Source: a virus. From it: a DNA stretch of 29,571 nt. Each line of letters starts with the position of its first letter. Positions within the stretch are counted from its first letter, which is position 1. A program made the translations under genes and the position numbers. Shown piece by piece: positions 5,344-29,571 of the stretch. Below the pieces are notes generated by a model. The model did no database searches. It was not told the DNA's origin and saw nothing but the letters and a program-made list of their open reading frames with translations. The DNA is taken from positions 1 to 29,571 of the IMG/VR virus record IMGVR_UViG_3300043803_001411. One strand, 5' to 3'.

Positions 5344-5385
5344 TTATTCCTCACAATTCTCTTAATCAAAGTATATAGCAATATT

Positions 5386-6336
5386 TTAAAGTATTGGCGA
5401 TATCTGTTTTTCCCAAAACTCCGATATATGCAGGTGCTTATGAAGCCCAGGGTGTGGCCAATGTGCGCCAGGCCCTTTACCAGATCTTCCATAATCATAT
5501 GCAATTTTGTGGTAATCGTAAGCATAATCAAATATTTCTGGATACTGATCCTTGTACTCTTTATGGCATCCCTGCCAGTTTATCATCTCATAATGAGGAG
5601 GCAAAGCATCAATATTTTTTGGATTAACAAGAAACTCAAAGTGTGGGGCAAACTCTTTTTTTGTTGTATCTGGAACATAGTGTCTAAAGTTATTTTTTAG
5701 AAACTCTTCTTGATCATCAGTCAGACCATTTGACCAACACGACCAGTATAGTTTTATGTTGTTTGATTCGCAAAATGCTTCTAACATTTTTATATGATCA
5801 AGGTTTTGATAGTAAACCCACTCATACGGGAGTATCTCTTCATAGTCCCAAGGGGCAGAAACTTTTGTCTTTTTTGGCTTATGATTAATAAACCACTCCT
5901 GCATTCTGTCTCCATCTGGCGAAACAAAATAAAATCTTTCGAAATTAGCAAAATGAGCAATAACAATTTCTGGCTTATATTGATATTGATGAATCATTCC
6001 AAAAAAACTTGAAACAAGTTTATTCGCAGCAGCACCCGAATAAGATATATTACCTATAGGAACCTCAATGCGAGAAGAGAGTAAGTCTGTCCACCTAAGA
6101 TCCTGTGGCATGCCTTGCCCAAGCGTTATAGAGCAGCCTAGAGCAACGATTGGTGGTTTTGTAGAAAACTCTATAGACCTTAAGTCATCACTGTTCCATT
6201 TATAGTCATATTCTGGCCTTGGTATTTCAGCATGAACTGCTAACACTTCTGTTGTGTGAGAATAGTCTTTTTTGGGATTGTTCTTATCAATTAGGTGATT
6301 TGGAATTACTCTTGGATTGAACATGTCAAATAGCAT
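5386..6336 (-). CDS. SGNH-hydrolase-like protein (cassette copy)
   Basis: 316 aa. Block I is IVALGCSITLGQGM with the presumed nucleophile Ser69, followed by W..LLSSRI and a Gly block (NISYSGAAANK). The block V region near the C-terminus is GAHWPHPGLHKHLH, which supplies candidate His residues. This pattern matches the SGNH/GDSL-type proteins found in phage structural or glycan-modification loci, which include esterases and O-acetyl transferases or hydrolases acting on sugars. Substrate is unknown. There is no signal peptide, so it would act in the cytoplasm, perhaps on fibre glycans. No strong ribosome binding site is seen; an internal start at Met5 is possible. A second, diverged member lies at 14154-15041. 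Confidence 0.75.
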   Translation of the reverse strand: MLFDMFNPRVIPNHLIDKNNPKKDYSHTTEVLAVHAEIPRPEYDYKWNSDDLRSIEFSTKPPIVALGCSITLGQGMPQDLRWTDLLSSRIEVPIGNISYSGAAANKLVSSFFGMIHQYQYKPEIVIAHFANFERFYFVSPDGDRMQEWFINHKPKKTKVSAPWDYEEILPYEWVYYQNLDHIKMLEAFCESNNIKLYWSCWSNGLTDDQEEFLKNNFRHYVPDTTKKEFAPHFEFLVNPKNIDALPPHYEMINWQGCHKEYKDQYPEIFDYAYDYHKIAYDYGRSGKGPGAHWPHPGLHKHLHISEFWEKQISPIL

Positions 6337-17940: not shown

Positions 17941-18048
17941 TTATCTGACCTTTCTTTATTTAATCTCTATACCTAGTATTCTAGCACCTACCACTGACAA
18001 ATTAGCCTGTTTTTCGGGCGTGTCGGGAAAGTATTTTTGTGATTTACA

Positions 18049-18165
18049 TCACCCTCCAAGGGTAAAGGCTAGGATAAGGGCTATTCCTAGGCCTACAAAG
18101 GCTCCGATAGGGCCAGCGTATTCGTATTCGTCTAGTAGGTCGATTAGGGCTGTAAATGGGTTCAT
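18049..18165 (-). CDS. 38-aa membrane protein, frame continues past a TGA
   Basis: MNPFTALIDLLDEYEYAGPI then GAFVGLGIALILAFTLGG and TGA. Residues about 18-38 are a membrane helix. GAAAGG lies before the ATG and the promoter is at 18215-18243. The same frame stays open for 30 more codons after the TGA (18048 to TAA at 17956), giving CKSQKYFPDTPEKQANLSVV then GARILGIEIK. That tail reads like protein, so this may be a stop-interrupted 69-codon gene or a leaky stop. Confidence 0.65.
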   Translation of the reverse strand: MNPFTALIDLLDEYEYAGPIGAFVGLGIALILAFTLGG

Positions 18166-18214
18166 GTTAGTGACCTTTCGTTTAGTAGTTATATTTTAAC
18201 TATCTAATACTGGA

Positions 18215-18243
18215 AGTATAACATAGATACCGCCAAAAGTCAA
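18215..18243 (-). promoter_or_regulatory. Leftward early promoter
   Basis: Minus strand TTGACT (18243-18238), 17-bp spacer, extended -10 TGT-TATACT (18220-18215). Drives the small-gene operon 18165 to 17251. CRP-like and GCGACACGCC sites lie directly upstream. Confidence 0.8.
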
Positions 18244-18320
18244 GGCGACACGCCGTATAGATAATGTGATCCTCATCACACGGGCCGGCACGTTTTTGTC
18301 AAGTCGACACGCTGATAAAA

Positions 18321-18344
18321 ATGGTCATTATTACTTATGACCAT
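18321..18344. promoter_or_regulatory. ATGGTCAT palindrome
   Basis: Perfect 8-bp inverted repeat (18321-18328, 18337-18344) with an 8-bp centre, between the divergent promoters. Operator candidate. Confidence 0.5.
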
Positions 18345-18349
18345 ACAAA

Positions 18350-18381
18350 TGTGACCCTTATCACTTGTGATACACCTCACA
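18350..18381. promoter_or_regulatory. Two abutting CRP/GlxR-like dyads
   Basis: TGTGACCCTTATCACT (18350-18365) and TGTGATACACCTCACA (18366-18381), with no gap between them. The half-sites match the CRP and actinobacterial GlxR consensus TGTGA-N6-TCACA. Confidence 0.55.
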
Positions 18382-18407
18382 ATGTCCGTTTTGATACCAT
18401 TTTGGGT

Positions 18408-18437
18408 TTGCAATTTGTCAGACCCCCATGCTACACT
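18408..18437 (+). promoter_or_regulatory. Rightward early promoter with TGTCAG box
   Basis: TTGCAA (18408-18413), 18-bp spacer, TGC-TACACT (18432-18437). TTGTCA (18415-18420) followed by GACCCCC sits 11 bp from the -10. Confidence 0.65.
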
Positions 18438-18491
18438 TGTAGGTATACAAGGTCGAAAAAGAAGTAAGCCCCTTAAAGAAAGGAAGTCAAA

Positions 18492-18668
18492 ATGACTTCA
18501 CTAAACACACTATGTAAAGAGCATAACCCTATGCTATCCGCTATCTCCGAAATTGGAGATGACCAATTTACTTTCTGCCAAGATTGTGAGCAGAACATTG
18601 AGCGTTGGTATAACGATACCGACCCTGAGCGTTTACCTATGTGGACAGATTGGAAGGTATCTAAGTGA
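18492..18668 (+). CDS. 58-aa zinc-motif protein
   Basis: ATG 18492 behind AAAGGAAG. MTSLNTLCKEHNPMLSAISE ... FTFCQDCEQNIERWY. CxxH plus CxxC can bind zinc; such small proteins lead many actinophage early operons. Overlaps the next gene by four bases (GTGA). Confidence 0.75.
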   Translation: MTSLNTLCKEHNPMLSAISEIGDDQFTFCQDCEQNIERWYNDTDPERLPMWTDWKVSK

Positions 18669-18865
18669 ATAGTACCGATAAATACTTAGACACTATGCAA
18701 TTCATAGATGAGCAAGGCTTATGCGCTATGGATAACATTTGCGCTTTTTGCATAACGCTATTTGACGGGTGGAATAGATTTTGCCCAGCGTGTAAAGACT
18801 ATAAGGGCGTTATGTCTCTCCCTGATTTTATCAACACTTATGGAAAGGAAGGACTTACAAGATGA
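18665..18865 (+). CDS. 66-aa zinc-ribbon-like protein, GTG start
   Basis: GTG 18665 overlaps the stop of the previous gene. The core ICAFCITLFDGWNRFCPACK has two CxxC pairs about 13 residues apart, the spacing of a compact zinc ribbon. Overlaps the next gene by ATGA. Function unknown. Confidence 0.75.
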   Translation: MNSTDKYLDTMQFIDEQGLCAMDNICAFCITLFDGWNRFCPACKDYKGVMSLPDFINTYGKEGLTR

Positions 18866-19026
18866 GTACCTTTGTTAATCTCCCCTCAGTTTGTGGGGCT
18901 ACATCTGCAAGCGTAGATGTCTATGACTTAGACCTTAACCCTCATGGGGTTATCTGTTGTGACAATTGCAAATCAATTGTGTTATGCCGTAAGGCTTGGG
19001 ACTATCTATACAAGGAGGCTAACTAA
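18862..19026 (+). CDS. 54-aa Cys-rich protein
   Basis: MSTFVNLPSVCGATSASVDV ... HGVICCDNCKSIVLCRK. CCxxC plus further Cys suggests a metal site. Four-base overlap upstream and one-base TAATG overlap downstream. Confidence 0.7.
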   Translation: MSTFVNLPSVCGATSASVDVYDLDLNPHGVICCDNCKSIVLCRKAWDYLYKEAN

Positions 19027-19166
19027 TGCCAGTTTTTAATTTTGAGTTATTCGTTGATGTCGAAGCAGATGATTTTGAGTCTGCCTATTCATGGCTAAAG
19101 GCTATGCCCCTTGAGAGACAATTAGACTTTCATGTCATTGACTATCGAGAGGTTGAGGTTGAGTAA
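19026..19166 (+). CDS. 46-aa unknown protein
   Basis: MPVFNFELFVDVEADDFESA YSWLKAMP..., a beta-alpha-beta pattern rich in acidic residues, with no known motif. Coupled on both sides by TAATG. Confidence 0.65.
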   Translation: MPVFNFELFVDVEADDFESAYSWLKAMPLERQLDFHVIDYREVEVE

Positions 19167-19258
19167 TGAAAACACTTCAAGAAAAACTTGACGCAGTTGC
19201 GTTAGAGTTAGAGCCAATACTTTGGGATTTACTAAATGAAATTGAGGAAAATAAATGA
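19166..19258 (+). CDS. 30-aa acidic helical peptide
   Basis: MKTLQEKLDAVALELEPILW then DLLNEIEENK. Amphipathic helix. Start overlaps the upstream stop (TAATG); end overlaps the next ATG (ATGA). Confidence 0.55.
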   Translation: MKTLQEKLDAVALELEPILWDLLNEIEENK

Positions 19259-19344
19259 GTAACTTTTTTATAAGTGGAAACGCATTGTTTTGGTTTTCTT
19301 TTATTTGTTTATTTTATGGATTTTATTTATTTGCAAAAGAATAA
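19255..19344 (+). CDS. 29-aa membrane peptide
   Basis: MSNFFISGNALFWFSFICLF then YGFYLFAKE. A single membrane helix with a Lys-Glu end. Last gene of the operon, directly before the terminator at 19356-19386. Confidence 0.55.
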   Translation: MSNFFISGNALFWFSFICLFYGFYLFAKE

Positions 19345-19355
19345 AATAAAAAAGG

Positions 19356-19386
19356 ATCGCAGAAATAAAAACTCTGCGATTTTTTT
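19356..19386 (+). terminator. Rho-independent terminator
   Basis: Stem ATCGCAGA (19356-19363) / TCTGCGAT (19373-19380), 9-nt loop, then a run of T to 19386. Ends the operon 18492-19344. Confidence 0.9.
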
Positions 19387-19402
19387 GCCGGCCCCTAAAA
19401 AG

Positions 19403-19411
19403 TTATCCACA
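19403..19411 (+). other. DnaA box
   Basis: TTATCCACA, a perfect consensus DnaA box in an intergenic gap; compare 20483 and 29266. Confidence 0.6.
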
Positions 19412-19474
19412 GGGTGTGCATAAGTAATGTGATAAGAAACACACTTTTATTTCCCCAAATTACGGCGTGTCGAT

Positions 19475-19503
19475 TTGCTTTTTTGAGATTTCTTTGCTAT
19501 ACT
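19475..19503 (+). promoter_or_regulatory. Promoter upstream of the CRP-like dyad
   Basis: TTGCTT (19475-19480), 17-bp spacer, extended -10 TGC-TATACT (19498-19503). Confidence 0.7.
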
Positions 19504-19540
19504 TCTAGGTATAACAATTAAATAATGACTAATTAAGCAA

Positions 19541-19595
19541 TGAGCCTTAGCAAATAAATGTGACCAGTATCACAGTGAGCCTAAGCAAATAAGTG
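19541..19595. repeat. 20-bp direct repeat flanking a CRP-like dyad
   Basis: TGAGCCTTAGCAAATAAATG (19541-19560) and TGAGCCTAAGCAAATAAGTG (19576-19595), 18 of 20 identical. TGTGACCAGTATCACA (19559-19574) fills the space between them. Direct repeats around an activator site suggest two protein-binding sites on one face of DNA. Confidence 0.65.
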
Positions 19596-19601
19596 CCCAA
19601 T

Positions 19602-19624
19602 TTGTCAGTGCCCCCTGTTATACT
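19602..19624 (+). promoter_or_regulatory. TGTCAG-type promoter
   Basis: TTGTCA (19602-19607), 11 bp containing GTGCCCCC, then TGT-TATACT (19619-19624). No good -35 at the usual distance. Confidence 0.65.
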
Positions 19625-19655
19625 TACTTATACAAACAAACGAAAGGTAGTCAAA

Positions 19656-19853
19656 ATGACTTACACTGTAAAACTAGAAACCTTTAATGGTTCTACCAAA
19701 AAAATCAACCTTGCCTCAAAAGGTGCGGTTGCTCAATTCATCTCAACCTACCCAACACAATTACCTGTTGGCGTGTCTGTTAAAGTCGCTTGCGACACTC
19801 TCGGAATTAGTGGTGTCCTTCGTGGCACTCTTACACTTACAAACCCAAACTAA
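19656..19853 (+). CDS. 65-aa unknown protein
   Basis: Start at ATG 19656 behind CGAAAGG; an upstream in-frame start would overlap the promoter. MTYTVKLETFNGSTKKINLA ... GVLRGTLTLTN. Beta-rich with Thr-rich strands; no family recognised. Confidence 0.7.
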   Translation: MTYTVKLETFNGSTKKINLASKGAVAQFISTYPTQLPVGVSVKVACDTLGISGVLRGTLTLTNPN

Positions 19854-19870
19854 GAATAGGAAAACTAACA

Positions 19871-20077
19871 ATGGTACAAATCGAACACAATCTAAAGTTT
19901 ATCACTGAGGTAGACGAAACTCATCCAGTAGGAATGCGCCTGCTTGCACTAGAAAAAGAAATGCAAATTGCAATGCTTGAGGGAATGCTAAAAGAATTAG
20001 TAGGTAGTAAACTCGGTCCTGTCCTTGATGAAATAAATGCGGGTGGGTCCTATGCAATTCTAAAGGTGGCCGAATAA
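19871..20077 (+). CDS. 68-aa helical protein
   Basis: MVQIEHNLKFITEVDETHPV, then a helix (MRLLALEKEMQIAMLEGMLK) and a Gly-containing end. AGGA upstream. No known function. One-base overlap with the next gene. Confidence 0.7.
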   Translation: MVQIEHNLKFITEVDETHPVGMRLLALEKEMQIAMLEGMLKELVGSKLGPVLDEINAGGSYAILKVAE

Positions 20078-20229
20078 TGAACGGGGTAAAACTTTCGGTC
20101 CGTAACATTAGCGGACAAATTTCTTATCCTGCTTATGAGGCTCACTCAATTGAAAAGGTTATTGAAATTGTAAATAGTACATGGCGTTTAGATAATGTCG
20201 CAGATGTAGAGAAAGTAGAAATTTACTAA
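20077..20229 (+). CDS. 50-aa unknown protein
   Basis: MNGVKLSVRNISGQISYPAY ... VIEIVNSTWRLDNVADVEKV. ATG overlaps the upstream stop (TAATG). Ferredoxin-like alternation of strands and helix; function unknown. Confidence 0.65.
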   Translation: MNGVKLSVRNISGQISYPAYEAHSIEKVIEIVNSTWRLDNVADVEKVEIY

Positions 20230-20412
20230 ATGATGACTCGTAAAGACTACATTGAAACTGCAAAAATTTTAAATAAATTTGCAGACACAATCGACTCACA
20301 CACTTTTCAAGATTTAATTTTTGAATTTAGTGAATGGTTCGCTTCAGACAATCCAAGATTTGACGAAAATAAATTTTGGGATGCTTGCGTTAAAGAATTA
20401 GCAAACGCATAA
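20230..20412 (+). CDS. 60-aa helical protein
   Basis: Starts immediately after the upstream stop with ATG ATG (either may be used). TRKDYIETAKILNKFADTID ... FDENKFWDACVKELANA. The 'DNPRFD..KF..AC' pattern recurs in small phage proteins of unknown role. Followed by the first copy of the hairpin repeat. Confidence 0.75.
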   Translation: MMTRKDYIETAKILNKFADTIDSHTFQDLIFEFSEWFASDNPRFDENKFWDACVKELANA

Positions 20413-20420
20413 AATAAAAT

Positions 20421-20444
20421 CCTGAGCAAGATCTAAAACTGCTC
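20421..20444 (+). repeat. CCTGAGCA-N11-TGCTC hairpin element, copy 1
   Basis: GAGCA / TGCTC stem with an 11-nt loop AGATCTAAAAC. Nine bases after a stop codon. Four more copies at 23521, 24303, 24833 and 26063. Confidence 0.8.
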
Positions 20445-20461
20445 AAAGATTTGCCGGCCCG

Positions 20462-20491
20462 TTTTCCACAGGTCAGACCAGGTTATCCACA
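20462..20491 (+). other. DnaA box and half-match
   Basis: TTTTCCACA (20462-20470, one mismatch) and TTATCCACA (20483-20491, perfect). Each is followed by GGTCA, so the unit TCCACAGGTCA is repeated 21 bp apart. Confidence 0.55.
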
Positions 20492-20560
20492 GGTCATTTA
20501 AGATGTGAGATTAAACACACCTATTGAGCGTCTCACTATTTAAGATTACTCAGAAGTAAC

Positions 20561-20589
20561 TTGAGATTTTTTGTCTAATAGGCTAGACT
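20561..20589 (+). promoter_or_regulatory. Candidate promoter
   Basis: TTGAGA (20561-20566), 17-bp spacer, TAGACT (20584-20589). Upstream lie GCCGGC (20453-20458) and a TGTGA-N6-ACACA site (20504-20519). Confidence 0.5.
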
Positions 20590-20650
20590 TACATAGTAAG
20601 AAAAAATAAATAAAAGAAAGTCTATTCGCTTACGGCGTGTCTAACCGAAA

Positions 20651-20673
20651 ATGTCAGACCCCCATGATAGGAT
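20651..20673 (+). promoter_or_regulatory. TGTCAG-type promoter
   Basis: ATGTCA (20651-20656), 11 bp containing GACCCCC, TGA-TAGGAT (20668-20673). GGCGTGTC lies at 20634-20641. An alternative -10 is TAGAAT 20673-20678. Confidence 0.55.
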
Positions 20674-20705
20674 AGAATTATCAACAAAAAGAAAGAGGTT
20701 GGCAA

Positions 20706-26091: not shown

Positions 26092-26168
26092 GGTTCCATA
26101 GATCAATTGGTTAGATCGCTACCCTGTCACGGTAGAGGCTACGGGTTCAAGTCCCGTTGGAATCGCCA
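26092..26168 (+). tRNA. trnD: tRNA-Asp (anticodon GUC), CCA encoded
   Basis: Full cloverleaf: acceptor GGTTCCA / TGGAATC (one G-T pair), D stem GATC / GATC, anticodon stem CTACC / GGTAG with loop CTGTCAC giving GTC, T stem ACGGG / CCCGT with loop TTCAAGT. Discriminator G73 fits tRNA-Asp and CCA is encoded at 26166-26168. It sits just after the DUF932 gene and may be processed from its transcript, since no promoter is seen in the 37-bp gap. Confidence 0.95.
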
Positions 26169-28856: not shown

Positions 28857-29098
28857 GTCCCCCGCTTCGGGCGCATTTGCCAATCCTATTAGACATTACG
28901 ACGGGCCAAAAAAATTTCCCCGAAATTCCAGGGGACAAAAGAGATACCAAATCCCCTAGTATAACAACAAATACCTATGTAAAATAGACAAACAATTTTA
29001 TCTTGGTTTTCTTTATTTTATTAAAAAATATCAAACAATTATATTATTTTATTGGCAAATTTGTCCAATTTTGTCATAATTATTTGTGTCAAATATAC

Positions 29099-29127
29099 TT
29101 GACAAATAGGTGGTTTGACGCTATAAT
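29099..29127 (+). promoter_or_regulatory. Strong sigma-70-type promoter without a clear gene
   Basis: TTGACA (29099-29104), 17-bp spacer, TATAAT (29122-29127): a full consensus. The transcript would start near 29134 and enter a stretch with repeated TCCACT and then the DnaA boxes, so it may be a non-coding or primer RNA. Confidence 0.75.
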
Positions 29128-29265
29128 CCATAGCCAGAATATGGGGATAGGAAGGTTTGATGGTTTGGCATTACGACCGCCATCGTTAAAAGCGCTCTAT
29201 ACTCCACTATCCTCCACTTCACTCCACTTCTAGGACAGATAATAAAAATATCAGTAAGATCTAAT

Positions 29266-29339
29266 TGTGGATAAACATGTGGATAACTATTAAGTAAAGG
29301 CTTATTTTCTTAAGTAAAGGCTAAGAAACCTGTGGATAT
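29266..29339. other. DnaA boxes and 13-bp iterons (origin-like)
   Basis: TGTGGATAA at 29266-29274 and 29278-29286 (both perfect inverted DnaA boxes), TGTGGATAT at 29331-29339, and TTAAGTAAAGGCT twice (29290-29302, 29310-29322) 20 bp apart. Confidence 0.6.
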
Positions 29340-29433
29340 CTTGCATAAGACGCAAGTCATAACTATCCCAAAACACTAATTTACCCTATCCAAATTAGCG
29401 TTACACATCTATATTCATTTGCGTATAGAAGTG

Positions 29434-29489
29434 TCAAACCTCATATCCTTGTTAGGTTTTATATCAAACCTCACATCCAAACCTCACAT
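29434..29489. repeat. TCAAACCTCACATCC iterons
   Basis: TCAAACCTCATATCC (29434-29448), TCAAACCTCACATCC (29464-29478) and CAAACCTCACAT (29478-29489). They lie directly upstream of the gene starting at 29506 and could serve replication initiation or its autoregulation. Confidence 0.7.
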
Positions 29490-29505
29490 ATGATATGATA
29501 GATAT

Positions 29506-29571
29506 ATGGACATTTTAGAAACAAACCTTGAAGACAAGTGTCACTATTGTCAAAATAAGGCCAAGTATACT
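29506..29571 (+). CDS. Partial gene with N-terminal CxxC (right edge)
   Basis: 22 codons visible: MDILETNLEDKCHYCQNKAK YT. CxxC suggests a zinc finger. TATGAT (29494-29499) ends 6 nt before the ATG, so it is a possible leaderless gene. Lying next to iterons, it might encode a DNA-binding or replication protein, but only its start is visible. Confidence 0.6.
   Translation, partial: MDILETNLEDKCHYCQNKAKYT

Follow-up and report, generated by a model that had tools for sequence, protein, structure and literature searches.

A gene-free block of approximately 250 bp near the right end of the window, which comprises a whole linear virus record of IMG/VR (29,571 bases), is probably the replication origin of a family of virulent phages and would depend on the DnaA protein of the host. 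From left to right, the block consists of a sigma-70 promoter, three CTCCACT repeats, the element ATCAGTAA, a pair of DnaA boxes separated by 2–3 bp, and a phased third box, and the place and orientation of these elements are fixed in more than 100 relatives. The block is noncoding, yet it shows the highest conservation of its region, far above that of its flanks in comparisons of 55–107 relatives, and the longest stretch conserved among relatives is the noncoding segment 29142–29290. In the columns of a 55-sequence alignment, ATTACG (within the conserved CATTACG at 29169–29175, plus strand) is invariant and ATCAGTAA invariant or nearly so, and ATCAGTAAGAT has a mean column identity of 0.97; the mean column identity falls to 0.20–0.42 in the DNA separating boxes 2 and 3 and beyond box 3. 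An ORF at 29003–29233 that spans part of the block was rejected as a gene, because indels interrupt the alignment and what is conserved there is a series of DNA motifs. The AT-rich DNA that the initial annotation had noted beside the block is real; it lies approximately 200–300 bp to the left, with a mean AT content of 0.77 in 92 relatives. The origin-like reading given there is supported by the paired boxes, the trio-like motif, the 10-bp repeats, and the recurrence in more than 100 relatives, but not by GC skew or by the repeats that had been chosen as iterons.

The window, at 29.6 kb, represents part of a freshwater phage genome of approximately 105–114 kb. Tail genes occupy its minus strand, and early genes, including a gp88-like gene and a DUF932 gene, its plus strand; a tRNA-Asp (GTC) gene is located in the early arm at 26092–26168. 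Relatives were drawn from IMG/VR, where no fewer than 299 stretches carry a gene for the DUF932 protein. Two relatives are probably complete genomes: they measure 105,135 and 111,870 bases and carry end repeats of 127 and 99 bases, respectively. The gene set of one relative, G002, comprises a terminase, a portal protein, a DnaE polymerase, RecA/UvsX, a DnaB-like helicase, a DnaG-like primase, SSB, and a Cas4-type exonuclease, and another, G003, encodes a WhiB protein. Because WhiB occurs in the family and the polymerase places Streptomyces phages of the Stanwilliamsviridae closest among named phages, the host is probably an actinobacterium. The family encodes its own helicase, primase, polymerase, and SSB. 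A search for DnaA domains (Bac_DnaA or Bac_DnaA_C) that included positive controls detected none in 11 phage records, and a phage-encoded alternative DnaA was rejected on that basis.

Boxes 1 and 2, both exact copies of TTATCCACA on the minus strand, lie 12 bp apart at 29266–29274 and 29278–29286 (column identities 0.92 and 0.97), and box 3, ATATCCACA at 29331–29339 on the same strand (column identity 0.85), has one mismatch to TTATCCACA, which is the consensus in relatives; the two exact boxes and the third near match reported initially were thus all recovered. Boxes were scored against the DnaA consensus TTATCCACA, from which the box of the host's own DnaA may differ. The box pair in the window is not a chance occurrence. 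Four exact boxes are present where a first-order Markov simulation predicts 0.4, a number reached in 1 of 2000 runs, and no run produced a pair within 30 bp. At least two exact boxes per block are found in 73 of 78 relatives and at least three in 55 of 78. In most of these relatives boxes 1 and 2 are spaced by 11 or 12 bp start to start (a gap of 2–3 bp), and box 3 follows box 2 at phased distances of 33–34, 43–44, or 53–56 bp; spacing by whole helical turns indicates a protein–DNA complex. All but one of the 194 boxes counted in the blocks of relatives (193/194) lie on one strand, and the pair thereby shows the same orientation and the separation of no more than 3 bp that characterize the basal unwinding system of bacterial oriC. 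A few relatives (G005/L067, L060, and L075) keep ATCAGTAA and have no exact boxes.

In the unwinding core of oriC, a single box, or two boxes separated by no more than 3 bp, is followed after a spacer of up to 16 bp by three or more triplets whose middle base is fixed (PMC8287927); the triplets sit downstream of the DnaA box and have the complementary consensus YTR/YTD (PMC8235120). Read on the minus strand from box 1, the block contains 5 nt and then a DnaA-trio-like run of seven NTN triplets at 29240–29260 (ATC TTA CTG ATA TTT TTA TTA), of which the invariant ATCAGTAA forms the core, so that at least three NAN/NTN triplets lie within 16 bp on the 3' side of TTATCCACA. The spacer to box 1 is exactly 5 nt in 87 of 88 cases and is not GC-rich. 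At variable positions the middle T is retained in 93%, 80%, and 68% of sequences, and the neighboring bases are mostly A/T mixtures, with one neighbor position being a fixed T. The stricter YTR/YTD consensus is matched by TTA and CTG and mismatched by the first (ATC) and fourth (ATA/ATT) triplets; the divergent relatives L256, L262, and L266, with TTA CTG TTA TTT, fit it better. In E. coli, the DNA opened in the arrangement of R1 and the unwinding element is likewise 3' of TTATCCACA, in the same orientation as in the block.

Relatives share ancestry and counts among them are not independent trials; the contrast between box clusters inside the same genomes is therefore the stronger evidence. 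Runs of at least four NTN triplets accompany 39 of 41 box pairs of the block (mean 6.3 triplets) and none of 28 box pairs of other clusters in the same phages, compared with 17% in shuffled DNA; they also occur in 9 of 10 further entries, which comprised loci fetched by pattern and the window's own copy (L001). Two such other clusters lie in the early arm of the window: an intergenic one at 19403–19423 (TTATCCACA on the plus and TTATGCACA on the minus strand), which lacks a DnaA-trio, and one between operons at 20462–20491 (TTTTCCACA and TTATCCACA, plus strand), both assigned to a putative regulatory class. Further concentrations of DnaA boxes occur at −7 to −3.5 kb and directly upstream of the DUF932 gene, and coding DNA is nearly free of them. 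With boxes at other early-arm intergenic sites, boxes alone do not identify an origin, and their use as a unique origin marker was rejected. The boxes of the other clusters occur on either strand, near TGTGAN6TCACA palindromes (5–9 per approximately 110-kb genome versus 0.1 expected) and promoters, and these clusters look regulatory. What sets the block apart from them is its run of triplets, the single orientation of its boxes, and the additional invariant elements. The CRP/FNR-like TGTGAN6TCACA motif and CGACACGCC both far exceed expectation (window 18000–20700 and 24900; relatives G001–G005) and are nearly confined to the early rightward arm, near DnaA boxes and promoters.

Three sets of repeats are found in and around the block. 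The CTCCACT direct repeats at 29202, 29212, and 29222 (29202–29228, plus strand; column identity 0.84) have a 10-bp period, and three exact copies at spacings of 10 and 10 bp are present in 36 of 78 relatives, at least two copies in 60 of 78. Between boxes 2 and 3, a pair of TTAAGTAAAGGCT repeats spaced by 20 bp (29290–29302 and 29310–29322, plus strand) constitutes a lineage-specific insert; found in 10 of 78 relatives, and as a pair in 15 IMG/VR stretches, TTAAGTAAAGGCT is by its distribution a minor variant and not a general feature. Three CAAACCTCA(C/T)AT repeats start at 29435, 29465, and 29478 on the minus strand (29435–29489), the third without the flanking TC/CC. Their reverse complement, AGGTTTG, is arrayed to the left of the core in relatives, and AGGTTTG/CAAACCT occurs approximately 2.5- to 5-fold above expectation, with a peak density near the block. 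The initial annotation had proposed the TTAAGTAAAGGCT and CAAACCTCA sets as origin iterons. Both sets exist as described, but they are the least conserved, and the conserved CTCCACT triplication and ATCAGTAA had not been listed.

Promoter elements were identified on both sides. A scan for TTGACA-N16-18-TATAAT, scored over 12 positions, revealed a perfect 12/12 sigma-70 promoter (TTGACA-N17-TATAAT, 29099–29127, plus strand) reading into the block. Among 104 relatives, 74 have a 12/12 promoter, and 98 one scoring at least 11/12, at 150–250 bp upstream of ATCAGTAA; the control stretch contained a 12/12 promoter in 0 of 104. To the right, the −10 hexamer TATGAT (29494–29499, plus strand) belongs to a predicted leaderless promoter and is located 6 nt before a start codon. 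Such a −10-like hexamer follows the last box just before an ORF in 76 of 107 relatives, in 62 at exactly 6 nt, a spacing that fits leaderless transcription. The gene that begins there (MDILETNLEDKCHYCQNKAKYT, 29506–29571, plus strand) runs off the contig; its 22-residue fragment contains one CxxC and the product is possibly zinc binding. Contrary to the earlier description, the start of this gene does not overlap the repeats but lies 16 bp past the last one, with the −10 hexamer between. Downstream genes vary among relatives and change while the block persists, and the block is therefore not tied to one gene. In relatives, gene content switches completely to the right of the block, the cassettes often carrying TATACT-N6-ATG. 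Eight of the 25 contigs ending within 10 kb to the right of the DUF932 gene stop 3–4 kb past it, near the start of the block.

From this arrangement we infer a course of initiation. Host DnaA would bind the paired boxes 1 and 2, with box 3 adding a phased site, and the DnaA oligomer would extend leftward onto a single strand of the triplet run at 29240–29260, opening the AT-rich DNA there. The phage DnaB-type helicase, primase, SSB, and DnaE polymerase would then take over. Beyond the opened segment, the CTCCACT repeats probably bind a second, phage-encoded factor, and transcription from the strong promoter at the left would aid opening or priming.

An unlikely alternative is that the block is an early regulatory region, at which host DnaA regulates transcription from nearby promoters, with replication starting elsewhere. 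Boxes do occur upstream of other early operons, near the CRP-like palindromes and promoters; the last box is often 17, 27, or 38 bp from the −10 hexamer; and a near-perfect promoter lies upstream of the block. The block is also unmarked by GC skew, the check that had been suggested initially. The skew signal is weak and follows gene orientation. After correction for strand, the side coefficient at the block has the wrong sign in the two complete genomes (−0.045 and −0.063), and the skew maxima lie at 104 kb (G002) and 67 kb (G003), with the optimum across the circle from the block in both, and skew was rejected as an origin locator. A GC-skew switch is common in origins but is not defining for phages. 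Against a purely regulatory role, the triplet run with its fixed 5-nt spacer is confined to the block, the boxes there share one orientation, the downstream genes are not conserved, and a promoter would not need the extra invariant elements. The strict spacing and orientation, the triplet run, and the CTCCACT repeats would be unnecessary if the boxes were a sponge that titrates host DnaA and halts host replication; some genomes do contain up to 13 exact boxes where approximately 1.5 are expected, but at 4–13 boxes per genome such a role is highly improbable.

Slightly less probable still is that the promoter yields a functional noncoding RNA or primer, the boxes being secondary. The strong promoter, the lack of a conserved ORF, and the precedent of RNA-based origins in some mycobacterial prophages (PMC7157519) would agree with it. 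However, the block showed no consensus RNA structure, no conserved covarying secondary structure, no greater folding stability than shuffled sequences (mean z +0.45), and no Rfam match, and a structured RNA was rejected; the promoter-to-core distance also has no fixed length. An equally slim chance attaches to an origin whose TTATCCACA-like sites are recognized by a phage protein instead of host DnaA. The presence of CTCCACT and AGGTTTG repeats points to one or more additional DNA-binding proteins, and a 243-aa gene without known function (phrog_7084) lies in the helicase–primase cluster; yet the sites are exact DnaA consensus followed by DnaA-trio-like triplets, and an alternative initiator was not recognized among the proteins searched.

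A host-DnaA-dependent origin of this design can be compared with several known systems. The iteron-type origins of plasmids and plasmid prophages that include DnaA boxes (P1 oriR, pSC101, and F) combine direct repeats of helical period with AT-rich DNA and a few DnaA boxes. The block resembles them in all three features but differs in its DnaA-trio-like run and in belonging to a phage of virulent type that encodes a polymerase, a helicase, and a primase of its own, and no RepA-type or other linked initiator gene was recognized among the proteins searched. As in oriC of Bacillus subtilis and Helicobacter pylori (PMC8287927, PMC8235120), same-strand tandem boxes no more than 3 bp apart are followed by a short spacer, by triplets with a conserved middle base 3' of TTATCCACA, and then by AT-rich DNA. 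Unlike bacterial oriC, the block belongs to a phage, has phage repeats and a strong promoter as neighbors, and has no dnaA gene nearby; its spacer is not GC-rich, and only TTA and CTG obey strict YTR. The lambda origin, described in part in PMC3985674, has O-protein iterons inside gene O and is activated by transcription from pR. Repeats beside AT-rich DNA and a strong promoter reading through are common to both, but the block is outside any gene and its conserved sites are DnaA boxes; no O homolog was found.

The exact core pattern is present in at least 119 IMG/VR contigs. A search with stricter triplets retrieved 21 contigs, some of them divergent family members (such as L266, which has a DUF932 gene), and nine share a different, near-identical sequence, TTATCCACAGGTTATCCACAACTTACTACTATTAGCTATT; no DnaA gene was found in the six records checked from this search. 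The nine belong to a second phage group, unrelated to the family of the window, and their core is likewise canonical. The group (L251–L253, L257–L259, L263, L267, and L268; for example, L268:10007–10040) carries a near-identical canonical DnaA box pair with CTTACTACTATTA triplets in noncoding DNA, and the L268 core adjoins a ferredoxin-like gene, a terminase, and a portal gene. A scan of bacterial genomes for the core gave one match, on a 22.9-kb contig in a Chitinophagaceae MAG; the gene downstream of it is similar to the one at phage locus L086, and the contig is therefore probably phage DNA in the bin. The literature, covered in part, yielded no phage with a DnaA-trio module.

The choice of origin in large virulent phages is known for few. 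If the reading is correct, a module shared by well over 100 contigs of freshwater phages, and present in a second phage group, would predict host-DnaA-dependent origins and allow origin unwinding to be tested readily outside chromosomes, and the success of infection would be tied to the DnaA state of the host. More tentatively, and less probably than not, virulent phages with their own replisome may have taken on the bacterial oriC unwinding core at least twice, and boxes at early promoters may let DnaA couple early transcription and replication to the initiation state of the host.

DnaA boxes in gene-free early regions are also seen in other phages. In the early region of T5-like Salmonella phage GEC_vB_N3 (NC_103212.1, approximately 5,350–5,870), a gene-free stretch of 530 bases contains three TTATCCACA boxes; it has only the boxes in common with the block, without triplets. 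The Stanwilliamsviridae Streptomyces phages Annadreamy, Sham, Faust, and Moab, whose polymerase is related to that of the family (53–55% identity), contain a pair of TTATCCACA boxes spaced by 12 bp within a gene-free early-arm stretch of 1.4–1.6 kb, a candidate origin that differs from the block in lacking the triplet run and CTCCACT and in having other repeats. In NC_048719.1 (118,437–119,920; equivalents in Sham, Faust, and Moab), a third box follows approximately 255 bp on, together with GTTGAAC/TTGTAGCAATACAA palindromic repeats.
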